Positions 2,923-13,131 of a DNA stretch of 64,000 bases are shown here, piece after piece. Made by a program: the position numbers and the translations under genes. This DNA comes from Verrucomicrobiota bacterium (GTDB taxonomy: Bacteria; Verrucomicrobiota; Kiritimatiellia; SS1-B-03-39; UBA6053), in assembly GCA_020831625.1 (NCBI GenBank), contig JAFIGD010000010.1, forward strand, positions 62,001 to 126,000, given 5' to 3'. Below the pieces are notes generated by a model. It made no database searches and had not been told where the DNA came from. It worked only from the letters and a program-made list of their open reading frames with translations. The first letter of the stretch is position 1, and every line of letters begins with the position of its first letter.

Positions 2923-3165
2923 ATGAAGACATACACAATTACAGAAAGCAAAACGCAGCTATCCTCATTGGTGGAACAGGTTGTCACTACAGGTCAGCCG
3001 GTTGTAATTGGCCGGCATGGGCGTCCTATGGTGCAGCTATGTGTTTTCGAGACGAAACAACCGCAACGCATGCTTGGTGCGTATCGGGATCAGATTCAGA
3101 TGGCTGACGATTATGATCAGTGGCCTGAAGACGAGGCGAAAGCACTAGGTTTAATTTCGGAGTAA
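2923..3165 (+). CDS. Antitoxin, Phd/YefM family
   Basis: An 80-residue protein starting MKTYTITESKTQLSSLVEQV, with the Phd/YefM N-terminal DNA-binding fold (KTQLSSLVEQVVTTGQPVVIGRHGRP is the family's core pattern). The acidic C-terminal tail (about 50-80) would wrap the toxin. Its TAA stop overlaps the ATG of the next gene (TAATG at 3163-3167), the usual antitoxin-first arrangement. A palindrome over the promoter suggests self-repression. Confidence 0.9.
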   Translation: MKTYTITESKTQLSSLVEQVVTTGQPVVIGRHGRPMVQLCVFETKQPQRMLGAYRDQIQMADDYDQWPEDEAKALGLISE

Positions 3166-3539
3166 TGATGTTTTTGTTGGATACCCATACGCTTTTATGG
3201 GCATCAAGTCAGCCCGAACAGCTGAGTTCCCGTGTGCGGGATATTTTACTGGACTCTGAAAACTTGGTGTATGTCAGCATGGTGACCCTCTGGGAGCTTT
3301 CCATTAAACAAAGCATTGGAAAACTCATCTTACCGAAGGATTTCTTCACCGGAATTTTTGAAACGGGCTATAGGCGGCTGGATATTTCAGAAACGCACCT
3401 GTTGCACTATCGCGCCTTACCCCTGTTGCACAGGGATCCTTTTGATCGACTGCTTGTAGCCCAGGCTCAGGCTGATGATTTGGCCCTCATCAGTCGGGAT
3501 AAATGGATTCAAGCTTATGACGCTCGGACATTCTGGTAA
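3165..3539 (+). CDS. PIN-domain toxin (VapC-like ribonuclease)
   Basis: A 124-residue PIN protein predicted to be a metal-dependent ribonuclease, neutralised by the upstream antitoxin. The acidic metal site can be traced: Asp in LLDTHTLLW near residue 6, Glu in VTLWELSIK, Asp in HRDPFDRLL, and Asp in LISRD near the C-terminus. The HRDPFDRLLVAQAQ block is typical of the PIN subgroup that pairs with Phd-like antitoxins. It overlaps the antitoxin stop and has a second ATG directly after the first. It looks intact. A transposase fragment lies directly beyond its stop. Confidence 0.9.
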   Translation: MMFLLDTHTLLWASSQPEQLSSRVRDILLDSENLVYVSMVTLWELSIKQSIGKLILPKDFFTGIFETGYRRLDISETHLLHYRALPLLHRDPFDRLLVAQAQADDLALISRDKWIQAYDARTFW

Positions 3540-6724: not shown

Positions 6725-7552
6725 ATGCGCACACGTAACGGCAGTAAAGAGTTCGTTTTTCAGGCTTTGGCCCTGGGAGTGATTGTGATTTTGGTTCATA
6801 CGGCGTATGAGCTGGTGATTCGGCCGCGGGCGATCGCGGCGATGGAGCGGGCGGCGGAAATCCGGGAGAGTCAGCCGGAAGTGGATGTGCCGCAGTCGCT
6901 GTCGGTGATTCTGAAGGATTATGAGCAGGAGGCGTGTTTTATTTTGTTGTTCTGGGCGCTGGCGTCGATGGCGTACAAGGGCAAGCTGTTGCGGAGGGAT
7001 CTGGTGTTTCTTCAGCGGGATTTTGTGGAGGTGGAGGAGGGGAAACGGATTCTGCCGGTGGATGCGAGGGATCTGAGCCGTCAATTGCAGGCCCTGCCGG
7101 AGGATCAGCGTTCGGCGCTGCTGCCGCGGACGCTGCTGGCGGCGCTGCACCGGTTTGAGTCGACCCGGAATGTGCAGGATGTGTCGGAGACGGTGACGCA
7201 GTTGTGTTTGTCGGAGGGGGAGCGGCAGGAGTCGGAGTTGAGCATGATCCGCTACATCGCCTGGGCGATTCCGAGCATCGGATTTATCGGCACGGTGCGG
7301 GGGATCGGCCTGGCACTGTCGCAGGCGCACGCGGCGGTGGAGGGGGAGATCGGTCCGGTGACCGAGAGTCTGGGAACGGCGTTCAACTCGACGCTGATCG
7401 CGCTGTGCTTGAGTATTCTGCTGATGTTTGTGGTGCATCAGTTGCAGTTGCAACAGGAGCGGTATGTGCTGGATGTGCAGGATTATGCGGAGGAGAAGCT
7501 GATCCGGCATCTGCACGTGATCCGCGAATCCCGGCGGGAGCCGCAGGAATGA
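6725..7552 (+). CDS. MotA/TolQ/ExbB-family proton channel protein
   Basis: Inner-membrane protein of about 275 residues, first of a coupled three-gene set. Membrane helices can be seen near residues 11-30 (FQALALGVIVILVHTAYEL), 75-90 (ACFILLFWALASMAY), about 175-195 (AWAIPSIGFIGTVRGIG) and about 215-240 (LIALCLSILLMFVVH). The block IPSIGFIGTVRGIGLAL and the later GTAFNSTLIALCLS match the TolQ/ExbB/MotA channel signature. A long cytoplasmic loop separates the second and third helices. I use ATG 6725; a TTG at 6710 is in frame too. The stop overlaps the next start by ATGA. The likely role is to couple proton (or sodium) flow to the VWA partner; this is inferred from the family. Confidence 0.85.
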   Translation: MRTRNGSKEFVFQALALGVIVILVHTAYELVIRPRAIAAMERAAEIRESQPEVDVPQSLSVILKDYEQEACFILLFWALASMAYKGKLLRRDLVFLQRDFVEVEEGKRILPVDARDLSRQLQALPEDQRSALLPRTLLAALHRFESTRNVQDVSETVTQLCLSEGERQESELSMIRYIAWAIPSIGFIGTVRGIGLALSQAHAAVEGEIGPVTESLGTAFNSTLIALCLSILLMFVVHQLQLQQERYVLDVQDYAEEKLIRHLHVIRESRREPQE

Positions 7553-8577
7553 GGCTGTTGGATCTGGATCCGGCGTCGCGGGGTCTGGCGGTGTGGAACG
7601 GCGGAGCCTGGCGCTTCGGCGCGGAGGCGCTGGCGGCGTGCCGGGTGGATCCGCAGGCGACCTGCTGGGATGTGTGGGAGGTGCTGTCGCTTATTCCGCT
7701 GGGGGTGAACCGGGACGGGGTGCGGCATCGGGCGGATTTGGCGGTGCGCATGCTGCGGGCGGAGGGGGGGGGGGCGGATGCACCGCGGGTGGCGCTGACG
7801 CCTTCGGGCTGGGACAAGGAGACCATGGGGGTGTTCCTGGGCGCGGCTTCGGCGGCGGGACTGAAGGTGCGCTGGCTGACCCCGCGGGCTGGGGTGGTGG
7901 TGTCGAAATTGAATCCGGCCGGAGACGCGTGCACGGTGGTGGAATGGTCCTGGAACCGTCTGCAGCGGGTGAAATGGGTCCGCAAGGGGGAAACCTGGCG
8001 CCAGGAGGAGATGCGTCTGGTCGCGGATGCGGGGATTCTGGCGTGTTTTCGCCGGGAGGCGCTGGCGGTTCAGGATTTGGCGCTGGAAAAATTCCGATTT
8101 GATCCTTTGTATTCGGGGCGGACGGAACAGGCGCTGTTTTCGGGATGGTGGGCGTCACTGCGGGAGGGGACGGAGTGGTCGGTGACGACCCCGGAGGGCG
8201 GACGGATTGATTTGTCCGGAGAGCGGACCCGGTTCTCGGCGCTGCACGGGGCGGTGATGGCGGAGGTGTCGGACGCTGAGGACGTGATCGCGCCGATGGC
8301 GTTTTTGCGGTTGATGGGGTGGCACCGGGCCCGGGCGGAGCTGTCGGTTTCGGGTCTTGAGGTGGAGGTGGAGGATCATGACGCGGATTCGGCGCGCTGG
8401 CGGGAGACGCTGGGGGCGGTGGAGCGGGACGGCGGCGGACCGCGGGCGACGCATGTGGTGATCGACGGGATAGCGGAGCCCTGGACGGGGGAGGCGCGGC
8501 CGGGGGAAACGGTGAAGCTGCCGGACGGCCGCACGGCGCTGGCGGTGTATGTCCGGGAGACTCATGGCGCGGCGTAA
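7549..8577 (+). CDS. Protein with possible actin/Hsp70-like fold, middle gene of the TolQ-VWA set
   Basis: 342 residues, soluble, no signal peptide. ATG 7549 overlaps the channel gene's stop by four bases, and the TGG/TAA end overlaps the VWA gene by 14 bases. The N-terminus LLDLDPASRGLAVWNGG and the block ALTPSGWDKETMG...AASAAGLKVRWLTP resemble the first strands and the 'A-A-x-A-G-L' helix of actin/Hsp70-type ATPase domains. Beyond that I see no clear phosphate loop, so ATPase activity is uncertain. It contains many Trp residues and an acidic C-terminal half. The conserved packing with a proton channel and a VWA protein says it is a cytoplasmic component of the same machine. Confidence 0.6.
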   Translation: MRLLDLDPASRGLAVWNGGAWRFGAEALAACRVDPQATCWDVWEVLSLIPLGVNRDGVRHRADLAVRMLRAEGGGADAPRVALTPSGWDKETMGVFLGAASAAGLKVRWLTPRAGVVVSKLNPAGDACTVVEWSWNRLQRVKWVRKGETWRQEEMRLVADAGILACFRREALAVQDLALEKFRFDPLYSGRTEQALFSGWWASLREGTEWSVTTPEGGRIDLSGERTRFSALHGAVMAEVSDAEDVIAPMAFLRLMGWHRARAELSVSGLEVEVEDHDADSARWRETLGAVERDGGGPRATHVVIDGIAEPWTGEARPGETVKLPDGRTALAVYVRETHGAA

Positions 8578-9649
8578 ATTCACGGTCTTCAGCCTGAGTT
8601 TTCTCGACTGCATTTGCTGCGGGTTCGGGGCGGTGATTTTGCTGTTTGTGCTGATGAGCGCGCGGTCGGCCACTGTGCGCGAAGAGCGGGTGGAGGATTT
8701 GCGGGGGGAGGTGGATCTGGTGGAGATCGAGGTGCTGAATCTGGAGCGGGAGAAGGTGCTGGCGCGGAACGCGCTGGATGAACTGATCGAGGAGATTGAG
8801 GAGACGCAGGGGCTGAGCCGGGAGGTGTTGGCGTTGCTGGAGGAGGCCCGCGAGGAACTGGCTCGGTTTGAGGGGGAGACGCTGGCGACCGAGGAGCACG
8901 TGAACCAGTTGAAGACGGATTTGCTGAGTCTGGAAGAGGGGCTGAAACGGTTGCGGGCCGGCGCGGAGGCGGAGGAGGAGGGGGAGGCACTGCGGATGTT
9001 CCGGGGGGACGGACGGCGGCAGTATTTGACCGGGCTGCAATTGCGGGGAGAGCGGACCCTGATTCTGGTCGACATCAGCGCGAGTATGCTTGCGGAGAAT
9101 ATCGTGGATGTGTTGCGGATTCGGAATCTGCCGGCGGCGGAACAGAAAGAGGCGGCCAAATGGGTGCAGGTGCGGCGGACGGTGGAATGGCTGCTGGCGA
9201 ATCTGCCGGCGGAGGGTCAGTTTCAGATCGCGGTGTTTCACGACGGGGCGCGTTCGCTGCTGTCGGACGCCGGCTGGTGGTCGGCGGCGGATCCGGCGGT
9301 GCGCGATGCGGCGGCGGAGGCGCTGGAGGCGCTGACCCCGTCCAGCGGGTCCAGTCTGCATCTGGCCTTTGACTGGGCAGCGGGAATGAATCCCCGTCCG
9401 GATAACATCATACTGCTCACGGACAGTTTGCCCACGATGGACCGAAGGCCGCCCGCCTTGCGCCGATCCGTCAGTGGCGCGCGGCGGATGCAGTTGTTTC
9501 AGGAGGCGGTGCGCCTGATCCCCGCCGGGATTCCGGTGAACACGATGCTGTTTTATCTGGAGGGCGACCCCTCCGCCGCGATCGCCTACTGGCGTCTTTC
9601 GGTGGACACCCGCGGCAGTATGCTCACCGTCGCCAAAGACTGGCCCTGA
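8564..9649 (+). CDS. Membrane-anchored coiled-coil VWA-domain protein
   Basis: 361 residues; start ATG 8564 has a GGGAGA ribosome site (an upstream ATG at 8549 does not). One N-terminal membrane helix carries the conserved motif FSLSFLDCICCGFGAVILL. Then comes a strongly charged coiled coil (about residues 35-125). The rest is a von Willebrand factor A domain with an intact metal site: LVDISASM (DxSxS), Thr in LTPSSGSSL and Asp in LLTDSLPT. The topology (one helix, then a periplasmic or cytoplasmic stalk and domain) is like ExbD/TolR/MotB partners of TolQ-type channels, but with a VWA head instead of a peptidoglycan-binding or ExbD fold. Third gene of the coupled set. Confidence 0.85.
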   Translation: MARRKFTVFSLSFLDCICCGFGAVILLFVLMSARSATVREERVEDLRGEVDLVEIEVLNLEREKVLARNALDELIEEIEETQGLSREVLALLEEAREELARFEGETLATEEHVNQLKTDLLSLEEGLKRLRAGAEAEEEGEALRMFRGDGRRQYLTGLQLRGERTLILVDISASMLAENIVDVLRIRNLPAAEQKEAAKWVQVRRTVEWLLANLPAEGQFQIAVFHDGARSLLSDAGWWSAADPAVRDAAAEALEALTPSSGSSLHLAFDWAAGMNPRPDNIILLTDSLPTMDRRPPALRRSVSGARRMQLFQEAVRLIPAGIPVNTMLFYLEGDPSAAIAYWRLSVDTRGSMLTVAKDWP

Positions 9650-9653
9650 TATT

Positions 9654-12600
9654 CTAAAAACTCGGAATCCGGGGGCGGCGGCGTTCGGTTGGCGCCGGGG
9701 CTTCGCCTTCGGGCTGATCGCCTTCCGGTTTTTCAGAGGGGCGGACGGCCCGTTCTGCGGCGGCGCGGGCGCCGGCCTCGGCGATGAGGGTCCAGAGGGC
9801 GCGCGCATCCGGTTTGGCCACGGTGCCCTGAATTACGACCGGCCGGAGAAGGGACCGGAAGCCGCTTTCGTCGGGGATTTCCTGAAGAAGACGGATGGAC
9901 TCAAACAGATTGGCAAGGGGCGGACGGGCGGCTATGGTCAACTCCAGACGAAGCGGGTGCTCGGTCAAGGGTTGATCCTCCACATGGGTCACCTTGCCGC
10001 TTCCCCGGAGGCGAAGATCCTGATTGCGCAGGGTGAAATCCGTGAGGGCGAGGTCGAAGTTCGGTTCGCGGTTGACCTCCAGGGAGAGGGTTTCAAATTC
10101 GATGGCATTGAAGTAGGTGGCCAGTTGACCGATTGCCTCGACATCGCCCCGGCCTGCCACCAAACCGCCCAGGCGTCCGGTCACCCCGCCCGCCTGGGCG
10201 CCTGCGGACACTGCGCCCCGGCGCAGGGCGCGGAGGGTTCCGTTTTCAGCCGAGAATTTGAATTCCCCGGTGATGAATTCCGCGAGGACGCCGAGGTTCG
10301 GAGCTTCGCCGGCCGCCCCGCCGACCATGGAGATGACCGCTTCGAGGACCGGTTCCTCCCCGGGGTCCGCATTGCGCAGGAAATTGCCGACATTGAAATC
10401 CCGGAAGCTCAGTTCGGTGGACAATTGGTAGGGTTTTTCCGGGTGATCCTCGCGGAAGCGGAGTCCGCCTTTCGCCCGGGCGACGGCGTCATCGATGACG
10501 ACAGAAAATGTCTCGAGCATGGCTTCCTGTTCGGTGACCGAGGCGAGGATTTTGAGATCCTTGAGGGTGATGTTCCCGGGCAGGATGATCCGGTTGATTT
10601 CCAGATCGGCATGCGCGAGCACACCGTCCCAGACCGGGGATTGATCCGGTTCGCGGGAGGCGTGGACGGGTTCACTCTCTTCCGCCGCACCGGAAGGGGC
10701 GGGTGCGGCCGCGTCGGGATTGGCGAACGCGGCGGCGAGGGTGGTGAAGTGCTCGCTGTAGACATTCTCGCTTCGGCTTTGGAACCGCGCATCGGGGACC
10801 TCTGCGGACAGGTCGAGGGTGAGGCCCAGATCGAAGTCGGTTGTTTGATCCGCGGCGGCGATGCGGAGGGGGCCGGACACGCTGATGCGGTCGGACTCGG
10901 CAAGGAGAATCTCCAGCGCGAGGGTGAGAGCGCTGACGGTGTCTCCGGTGTCGGTGACCCGCAGATCCCTCAGCGACAAATCGAGGGAGGCCGTAAGATC
11001 ACTTTCCCCGCCTTTCGCGTTCAGGGTTCCGGCGAGGACACCTTCCGAGGTATTGCGGAAGGGTTTCCCGAAGGGCTGAGCGAGCAGGGCGGGGAGATTC
11101 ACTTGCCAATCGGCGGTGAGTTCCACTTCCGGTTCCTGCTGCATGTCGGTGATGGAGCCGGCGGCGCGGAGGCCGGCGATTTCCTGTTCGGCACCGGTGA
11201 GAGTTAATTCGCCGAGATCAAAGCTGAGCTCCTTGGGATCGTACGCGGCGGACGGTGCGAGGGAGAGGGTGAGGTCGCTCACCAGGGGTTCGCCGTCCGG
11301 AGCGAGGCTCAGGCCGCGCAGGGTGACTGGTTCGGTTGTGGTCAGACGCAGGGTTTGGCCTTCGCCGGAAAGGATCAGGCGGCCGCCAAAGGATTCGATG
11401 GTCAGGTTCAGATCGGGTGCGAGTCCGTTGATTAATTCGACAGGCAGGCCGGACAGCGCCATTTCGATGAGCGGTTCGCCGGGGGTGCTGAAAAAGGGCT
11501 CGTTGGTCTCAAGGTTGATGCCGAAGACCTGACGGGCATCCATTTGAATAAGGGGCGTTTCGCGGGGGGCGGCCACGAGCAGGCGGAGTTCGCGGACTTC
11601 GGCTTTTTCGGGGTTTGCCGACAGGTCAAAGGCGCTGTCGAGCAGGAAGGTGGGCACTGAGGCCAGTTCCGGGCGGAAGTTTTCCAGTTCGTTGGCCTCA
11701 ACGGAAAAGGTTCCCTGTGTGGAGCTGATCTGAGAGGCGGTGGCGAAGGTGAACCGGCCTTCTCCAGCCGCCCTGGCCCATGCGCCGTTCAAAAGCGGGT
11801 CGACAAAAAAGGCCGCCGTGCGTGTGTCGGCATTAATCGACCAGGTGCCGCTGAGGGCGCGCTCCGCGGACTCGAAAGCGGCCTGGAGGGTGACCAGGTC
11901 CGCGGCGTTTTCGGCGCCCGGGAAGAGGGTCAGGCGGAGGGAATAGTCCTCTCCGCTGCGGTCGGCGTTCTCAGACAAATCGAGCGCACCGCTTATTTGG
12001 AGGGTTTCCGTGCGTTCCTCTAAACGGACATCGACATCGGCCAGCAGTTCGACAAGGATGCCGGTCAGGATGTCTTCATTGCGCAGGGTCAGGCTCAGAT
12101 CCGTCGTGAGCGAAGCCAGGGGAACAACGGCTTCCGCCTGATGATCCTCATAGGCGAGGACGAGTTGTAGTTTCGGTTGACTTTTCGGGGTAATGTCGTT
12201 GCCGGACAGGGTGAGGCGGGCGTTTTGCAGGCCGCCTGGAAGAATCACCAGGGCCTCGATCGAAACGCTGTCGACGATGAGTCCGTGCCATTTGATGTCC
12301 TGAAACAGTCCTTCGAACGCTTCGGCGGGGGAGGGCTGCGCGGTTCGGGTCACGGGGGACGGATCCCGCGGGGGGGCGGTAACGGGTTCGGCCGGCGGGG
12401 CGGGTTCGAAATCGGTGAGATCCAGGACGAGGCCGGTCAGGCTCAGTTCGCGGATATGAAGTTTGCGGCTGAAGAGTGTTCCCATTAACGGAAAGTCAAC
12501 GCGCAGGCGTTCCATTGAGATTTTCACGGAGTCGACTTCGCCATGGAGTTGCTCCACGGTCAGGCCGCCCGGTCCGAAGTGCGCTTTTTCGAGAGTCATT

Positions 12601-12731
12601 CCGTCGGGCAGACCGCGTCGAACCACGGAGGTTTGGATGCCGGCGCTGTTCAGGATGAACGTTGCCGAGAGCAGCACGATCAACAGGATACCGACGAATA
12701 AAAACAGAAAAATTTTCAGAAGTTTTTTCAT
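9654..12731 (-). CDS. AsmA-family giant periplasmic protein
   Basis: 1025 residues. The start at 12731 (MKKLLKIFLFLFVGILLIV) gives a proper N-terminal membrane anchor; ten more codons upstream are open. The body is a long repetitive series of beta strands alternating hydrophobic and polar residues, as in AsmA/TamB/YhdP-like proteins that bridge inner and outer membranes and are linked to lipid transport. The C-terminal ~280 residues contain the AsmA-C-like section (NGTLRALRRG...NREPNFDLALTDFTLRNQDLRLRGSG in blocks) and end in a charged Pro/Arg tail. It converges on the VWA gene with four bases between stops, so the two operons end tail to tail. Family call by composition and pattern. Confidence 0.75.
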   Translation of the reverse strand: MKKLLKIFLFLFVGILLIVLLSATFILNSAGIQTSVVRRGLPDGMTLEKAHFGPGGLTVEQLHGEVDSVKISMERLRVDFPLMGTLFSRKLHIRELSLTGLVLDLTDFEPAPPAEPVTAPPRDPSPVTRTAQPSPAEAFEGLFQDIKWHGLIVDSVSIEALVILPGGLQNARLTLSGNDITPKSQPKLQLVLAYEDHQAEAVVPLASLTTDLSLTLRNEDILTGILVELLADVDVRLEERTETLQISGALDLSENADRSGEDYSLRLTLFPGAENAADLVTLQAAFESAERALSGTWSINADTRTAAFFVDPLLNGAWARAAGEGRFTFATASQISSTQGTFSVEANELENFRPELASVPTFLLDSAFDLSANPEKAEVRELRLLVAAPRETPLIQMDARQVFGINLETNEPFFSTPGEPLIEMALSGLPVELINGLAPDLNLTIESFGGRLILSGEGQTLRLTTTEPVTLRGLSLAPDGEPLVSDLTLSLAPSAAYDPKELSFDLGELTLTGAEQEIAGLRAAGSITDMQQEPEVELTADWQVNLPALLAQPFGKPFRNTSEGVLAGTLNAKGGESDLTASLDLSLRDLRVTDTGDTVSALTLALEILLAESDRISVSGPLRIAAADQTTDFDLGLTLDLSAEVPDARFQSRSENVYSEHFTTLAAAFANPDAAAPAPSGAAEESEPVHASREPDQSPVWDGVLAHADLEINRIILPGNITLKDLKILASVTEQEAMLETFSVVIDDAVARAKGGLRFREDHPEKPYQLSTELSFRDFNVGNFLRNADPGEEPVLEAVISMVGGAAGEAPNLGVLAEFITGEFKFSAENGTLRALRRGAVSAGAQAGGVTGRLGGLVAGRGDVEAIGQLATYFNAIEFETLSLEVNREPNFDLALTDFTLRNQDLRLRGSGKVTHVEDQPLTEHPLRLELTIAARPPLANLFESIRLLQEIPDESGFRSLLRPVVIQGTVAKPDARALWTLIAEAGARAAAERAVRPSEKPEGDQPEGEAPAPTERRRPRIPSF

Positions 12732-13131
12732 GAGAGACACCTGCAAGGTGAATGTTAACAATAATGGTTTAATCCATACGTTAAAACTATAAGTAAGGTC
12801 CTTTGAAAAAGCGATATTTTTTTAGGGGTGTTGGGGAAACGGGGTGTTGGGGTGATGGGGTGATGGGGTGATGGGGTCCCGATAAGATGACTGCGCGGAA
12901 CGGGCAAGCCCATTCCTTGCGGTTCCGCGGGTTGGAGTCTCTCCGTGAAATGAGATGTTTGCGCTCCACGGGCAAGCCCGTACAGCGCTTTTGGAGATGA
13001 AAATTATCATTCCCCACTGTTCCTCAGGCCGGGGGGGCTTTCGGTGAAATGAGATGTTTGCGCACAAGGGACAAGCCCGTAATGCGAGGAACGGGCAAGC
13101 CCATTCCTCAATAAGAAAATATGGCTCAATG
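12732..13131. repeat. REP-like palindromic repeats and G-rich tandem repeat
   Basis: A gene-free stretch. At 12829-12878 there is a short tandem run based on GGGGTGATG. It is followed by four copies of a palindromic unit with core GGAACGGGCAAGCCCATTCC or CACGGGCAAGCCCGT (about 12896-12918, 12966-12982, 13066-13082, 13086-13109). Two copies of a second word, GTGAAATGAGATGTTTGCGC (12944-12963 and 13044-13063), alternate with them. The same two words recur at 19840-20025, and the palindrome at 26630-26667. Confidence 0.75.

Follow-up and report, generated by a model that had tools for sequence, protein, structure and literature searches.

A TolQ-like channel, paired VWA membrane proteins, and an Hsp70-fold protein in a Verrucomicrobiota genome: probable core of an envelope motor

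A Verrucomicrobiota bacterium (assembly GCA_020831625.1, contig JAFIGD010000010.1) carries 3 linked genes that probably encode most of the core of an ion-driven motor in the cell envelope. They lie within a stretch of 64,000 nucleotides, termed the window, whose numbering is used throughout. The 3 open reading frames (ORFs) occupy the plus strand at 6725-7552, 7549-8577, and 8564-9649, and overlap by 4 and 14 bases, as the original prediction had it. The first gene product is a TolQ/ExbB-like channel A subunit of 275 amino acids (TQ); the second (MID, 342 amino acids) combines an Hsp70/actin-fold domain with degenerate nucleotide-binding loops and the C-terminal stub of an FHA domain; the third (V1, 361 amino acids) has one transmembrane (TM) helix, a coiled coil, and a VWA domain, and is the B-type partner of TQ. 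The overlaps had been read as a sign that the products make one complex; gene overlap alone is coupled translation, not proof of a complex. Many distant genomes, well beyond close relatives, have these genes in the same order with short gaps or overlaps between them, so the arrangement is not due to chance. A scan of the locus for promoters and terminators gave nothing above shuffled sequences.

TQ matches the Pfam family MotA_ExbB (E 1e-12; 48.3 bits against a curated cut-off of 22.9). Its AlphaFold2 (AF2) model, with a predicted local distance difference test score (pLDDT) of 91.7 and a predicted template modelling score (pTM) of 0.84, has four long predicted helices (residues 4-49, 66-97, 150-199, and 210-262), including an N-terminal helix that is extra compared with TolQ. 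Foldseek searches with this model return TolQ and ExbB as the best matches (probability 1.0, TM-score up to 0.69 on the target, E about 2e-3); ZorA and MotA rank below them. By sequence, TQ misses the cut-off of the NCBIfam tolQ equivalog (23 bits vs 221). The last two TM helices hold the threonines that align with the pore threonines of Escherichia coli TolQ: Thr190 (7292-7294, in GFIGTVRG) with that of GLFGTVWG, and Thr223 (7391-7393, in FNSTLIAL) with that of ALIATAIG. Both are threonine in 64/64 relatives, and Thr190 also in 30/30 sequences of another alignment. The residue counts for TQ (64), V1 (69), and its paralogue V2 (54) are from the loci nearest the query and form a biased sample. 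The TQ and V1/V2 alignments, searched by sequence against solved structures, returned nothing useful.

V1 has a sole strong N-terminal hydrophobic segment, FSLSFLDCICCGFGAVILL (residues 9-27), followed by the coiled coil. The TM helix, FSLSFLDCICCGFGAVILLFVLM (8588-8656; hydropathy peak from residue 13), carries the invariant motif F..SFLD.I.CGFGA..LLFV, which is common to V1 and V2. Within it, Asp15 (8606-8608) is the candidate ion-carrying aspartate on grounds of conservation: it is invariant in 69/69 V1 and 54/54 V2 sequences. A single N-terminal helix with a conserved aspartate is the arrangement of ExbD/TolR/MotB-like B subunits. For the register against TolR, which sequence leaves unsettled, published AlphaFold3 models of this type of pair (PMC12204202) give support. 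The approximate limits of the coiled coil (8675-8974) come only from matches to coiled-coil and SMC models. The VWA domain (9056-9649) matches Pfam VWA_3 above its cut-off (E 1.6e-6) and aligns at a metal site formed by D170, S172, S174, S263, and D287. This site, too, is common to both paralogues: it reads D-S-S-T-D in 69/69 V1 relatives and D-S-S-S-D in 54/54 V2 sequences, with Ser263 of the window protein standing where V1 relatives have threonine. No Pfam or NCBIfam match to an ExbD/TolR periplasmic domain was found in V1; the VWA domain is in its place.

The wider family was surveyed by a V1 and V2 scan of genomes from 84,980 species, which confirmed at least 535 related stretches; the locus analyses use the best 80. 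In relatives of the same family, a second TM-coil-VWA paralogue, V2, lies directly downstream of V1, and the window trio is therefore incomplete. Where a locus has both genes, V1 and V2 are nearly always neighbors, and no other strand arrangement occurs among the 80 loci. In the window's genome (G000), V2 is an intact ORF of 333 amino acids on a different contig (G000:C43; locus L025:9011-10012, minus strand). There a signal-peptide/GDSL-like gene precedes it by 14 bases, a pairing absent in relatives. In the window, a large AsmA-like gene without a Pfam match (9654-12761, minus strand) ends 5 bases from the V1 stop and occupies exactly the place that V2 has in relatives. A close relative with a V1 94% identical (G002) has the same junction of V1 and AsmA-like gene; A relocated V2 is thus likelier than a misassembly. 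In another genome (G009; L011 / L033), the V1 copy is broken by several in-frame stops, and TQ and V2 appear open.

These results bear on how the locus was first read. A TolQ/ExbB/MotA-type channel had been proposed, alongside a partner gene with one helix, a coiled coil, and a VWA metal site, and each of these features is present. The proposal that the VWA protein takes the place of the usual ExbD/TolR/MotB partner is right in one respect, as the VWA domain replaces the periplasmic domain; it is wrong in another, as the invariant TM aspartate indicates that the ion-coupling role is kept, and V1 is one of a V1 and V2 pair. The treatment of the trio as the whole unit overlooked V2.

MID matches no Pfam or NCBIfam family. 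Its AF2 model (pLDDT 89.7, pTM 0.81) places it by Foldseek against the Protein Data Bank (PDB) nearest to Ssz1 (4gni, E 1.2e-11), an atypical Hsp70, and then to Hsp70s, with 265 chains at E ≤ 0.001. As modelled, the fold is that of the Hsp70 nucleotide-binding domain, a member of the actin superfamily; the actin-like features that had been suggested for this protein are right as to fold. MID differs from Ssz1 and Hsp70 in having no substrate-binding domain, in nucleotide loops that are not conserved, and in the C-terminal FHA domain of its relatives. In family alignments judged by eye, the phosphate and adenosine motifs DLGTT, DLGGGT, and GGS.R.P are not conserved; this makes ATPase activity doubtful, and the protein is probably not a working ATPase. 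In relatives, MID is about 455 amino acids long, with an FHA domain at its C-terminal end (Pfam FHA matches with E as low as 2.4e-13). The window protein has no Pfam FHA match; aligned to homologues that do, it retains just the first and last strands (ATHVVIDGIAEPW...GETVKLPDGRTALAVYVRE, 8449-8559), and the phosphothreonine-binding part is missing.

The best 80 loci come from Desulfobacterota, Gammaproteobacteria (many of them Woeseiaceae), Acidobacteriota, Kiritimatiellota, and one planctomycete. In all 80, the genes of the system are on one strand, and 49 have the order F5-F4-TQ-MID-V1-V2, with contig ends interrupting most of the remainder. F4 consists of PEGA repeats and an FGE-sulfatase domain. 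F5 consists of TPR repeats and a conserved C-terminal PEGA-like domain, to which many members add an N-terminal Ser/Thr kinase. Distances between loci correlate among TQ, MID, V1, and V2 (r 0.77-0.95, uncorrected for the species tree). TQ is present in 23/388 genomes sampled from the window's phylum (E ≤ 1e-25) and in 15/398 genomes from the phylum that includes locus L069 (E ≤ 1e-60). MID is missing from a divergent group in the Gammaproteobacteria, which otherwise retains F5-F4-TQ-V1-V2. Three Verrucomicrobiota loci (L145, L146, and L154, in G086, G395, and G200) hold TQ-V1-V2 with neither MID nor a nearby F4 or F5, possibly a minimal form of the motor.

F5 and the motor genes are retained together even when they are not neighbors. 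The window's genome has F4- and F5-like genes on contigs C102 and C32; together with V2, the missing members are spread over three other contigs. In a single-contig genome (G008), F5-F4 lies 0.8 Mb away from TQ-MID-V1-V2. Among 195 sampled genomes of the phylum, 10 have F5 (E ≤ 1e-20); TQ is present in 10/10, and in six of them F5 is on a different contig or far from TQ. Outside the window's class, 14/15 TQ-bearing Verrucomicrobiota have F5 (E ≤ 1e-12), and in 38 TQ-lacking genomes the F5 search gives stray kinase-domain matches only. Co-occurrence without linkage is good evidence that these genes serve a common function, but caution is needed because the positives are confined to few families. 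F4 was considered as a universal component and rejected, since at E ≤ 1e-40 it is missing from most motor-bearing Verrucomicrobiota.

The kinase of F5 and the FHA domain of MID also tend to occur together. An intact FHA domain is present in 23/23 loci with an active-looking kinase vs 5/22 loci without one (Fisher p 2e-8; L061, whose kinase region is masked with N, was excluded). These loci amount to only 2-4 independent pairs on the TQ tree, and for this reason a link between the two domains is no more than suggestive. Kinase and FHA would be ancestral, with both lost in the window's lineage.

Other genes lie close to these loci. Directly after V2, a small lipoprotein (about 230 amino acids, no Pfam match) recurs in some loci (L106-L113 and others), and an OmpA-family protein holds this position in Woeseiaceae; both are candidate outer-membrane partners. 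One of these loci, L106 (CAMAXE010000004.1), is titled Klebsiella pneumoniae; it is a metagenome-assembled genome whose TQ groups with an uncultured gammaproteobacterium, and the name looks wrong. In the window, a Phd/YefM antitoxin and PIN-domain toxin pair (Pfam; 2923-3539) lies about 3 kb upstream of the motor genes, and positions 1179-2846 encode a fused double-ATPase subunit of an oligopeptide ABC transporter.

Part of this architecture has been described. A 2025 study in Molecular Biology and Evolution (Origin and Evolution of Bacterial Periplasmic Force Transducers; PMC12204202) presents tolQ-like genes with paired heterologous TPH-vWA partners and no tolR or exbD, in Proteobacteria and Verrucomicrobia, with a conserved proton-binding TM aspartate. 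The AlphaFold3 models given there put the paired TM helices inside the pentamer, with the aspartate within a ring of threonines. The window genome has the same elements: a TolQ-like gene, a heterologous TM-vWA pair, the TM aspartate, and no adjacent tolR or exbD, here with V2 on another contig. The core of channel and paired VWA proteins is thus already published, and the window holds a member whose operon is dispersed and which lacks kinase and FHA. The original prediction that no function had been described for this architecture stands as to function, since the study assigns none; the architecture itself was on record. Kinase, PEGA, sulfatase-like, and Hsp70 partners are not mentioned in the study's main text. 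Set against it, the Hsp70-fold/FHA protein, the TPR(-kinase) and PEGA-FGE partners, and the relocation of V2 are additions, and the wider partner set seems new. Compared with TolQRA and ExbBD-TonB, the system shares the A subunit fold, the pore threonines, and a B-type single helix with aspartate. It differs in that the B subunits are coil plus VWA rather than a TolR/ExbD domain, and no TolA/TonB-type transducer is seen in the locus.

The analysis establishes gene content and order, conservation, the folds of TQ and MID, and the co-occurrence of the TPR partner. We think it likely that the trio supplies most of the core of an envelope motor driven by proton-motive force, with a 5:2 stoichiometry, a VWA heterodimer as its axle, and ancestral control by kinase and FHA. 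An ion-conducting ring would consist of five TQ subunits, and a dimeric axle of one V1 and one V2, each supplying a helix whose ion-carrying aspartate faces the ring threonines. Proton flow would turn the ring against the axle, and the coiled coils would transmit torque or pull to two periplasmic metal-binding VWA domains that grip an envelope target. The Hsp70-shaped MID may sit on the cytoplasmic face as an adaptor or stator, and F5 and F4 would be likely envelope-side partners. In the ancestral form, with FHA on MID and the Ser/Thr kinase on the TPR partner, phosphorylation may switch or recruit the motor; with both lost in the window's lineage, the motor there would be constitutive or otherwise controlled. 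In the cell, the motor most likely serves to maintain the envelope or works on a surface structure, rather than acting in phage defence.

Several observations weigh against the motor as drawn. An ungapped comparison of the V1/V2 helix with that of E. coli TolR does not itself put the aspartate in register. Some groups have no MID, and F4 is not found, at the threshold given above, in most motor-bearing Verrucomicrobiota. Furthermore, the association of kinase and FHA comes down to few independent pairs, and in five loci FHA occurs with no kinase linked to it.

Two other functions for the same proteins are unlikely, though each has evidence in its favor. The first is gliding or adhesion in the manner of AglRQS-Glt, where the VWA domains would be force-bearing adhesion modules and the motor would couple to the surface or to an outer-membrane adhesin. 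AglRQS likewise combines a single TolQ-like subunit with two B subunits that differ from each other, and TPR and FHA proteins are among the Glt partners (PMC3169522); the VWA fold is one of adhesion, and PMC12204202 suggests gliding for a related VWA family. AglQ and AglS belong to the ExbD/TolR family, and that motor operon has no VWA, Hsp70-fold, or FGE partner. Against a gliding role, no recurrent Glt/Agl homologues or adhesins lie beside the loci studied here, and the broad host range, in hosts not compared directly for gliding, gives no sign of a common gliding habit.

The second is a sensor and not a motor: a TQ-V1-V2 channel gated by metal-dependent VWA binding, with kinase, FHA, and MID forming a phosphorylation relay like PpkA, Fha, and TagQRST of the type VI secretion system. 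One cluster does hold kinase, FHA, and periplasmic sensing domains, and PpkA is activated via its periplasmic domain and phosphorylates Fha (PMC6082577), which counts for this reading. Many lineages, however, keep the motor without the kinase, and the invariant aspartate and both threonines argue for active ion coupling and not for sensing alone.

A likeness to ZorA/ZorB, the membrane pair of Zorya anti-phage systems, had been suggested. In a defence role of this type, the motor would detect infection at the envelope and pass the signal to MID in the cytoplasm. Zorya ZorAB (PMC11890865) does belong to the same superfamily of ion-driven 5:2 motors, the operon here includes a gene for a cytoplasmic partner, and PADLOC gives weak ZorA matches to TQ (best 2.1e-5). 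These matches are partial, fall on the shared channel core (2e-5 to 0.03), and come with no ZorB match; for V1, V2-type proteins, and MID, PADLOC finds nothing beyond coiled-coil noise. Membership in Zorya was rejected, as the NCBIfam ZorA model NF033917 gives 13 bits where its cut-off is 500, and TolQ/ExbB are nearer to TQ by fold. ZorB binds peptidoglycan where the B subunits here have VWA, and the long cytoplasmic tail of ZorA and the effectors ZorC/D/E were not found; there is no nuclease or ATPase effector, and effector domains are not among the recurrent neighbors. Linkage to defence islands, which the original prediction proposed to look for, did not appear either, with no PADLOC match in the flanking genes tested, and V1 is absent from the 72,556 plasmids and 50,697 phages searched. 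A recurrent cluster of a single order, together with dispersed yet retained genes, fits vertical inheritance. We therefore regard a defence role as very improbable. Equally improbable is a decaying relic, which the dispersed operon, the departure of V2, F4, and F5 from the locus, the loss of FHA and kinase, the fast evolution of MID (37-50% identity within the window's family), and the stops in the V1 copy of G009 might suggest, given that all G000 ORFs are open with key residues kept, TQ is 65-90% identical within the family, and the partners are retained at other loci.

More tentatively than the motor core itself, the full set may represent a new class of trans-envelope machine: a proton motor with a VWA heterodimer axle, a repurposed pseudo-Hsp70 that acts as adaptor in the cytoplasm, an envelope module of TPR and PEGA proteins, and a switch made of Ser/Thr kinase and FHA, with simplification to a kinase-free form scattered across the genome in Kiritimatiellota. 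The published core, as its main text presents it, had neither known partners nor a function, and recurrent partners make the system testable. The foremost new lead is the TPR protein, which accompanies the motor even where the genes are not linked, together with the Hsp70-fold/FHA protein and the linked kinase. These partners raise the questions of what the VWA domains grip and whether phosphorylation switches an ion-driven motor. The system would add a fourth kind of load to the motor superfamily, besides Ton/Tol transport and stability, flagellar or gliding motility, and Zorya.

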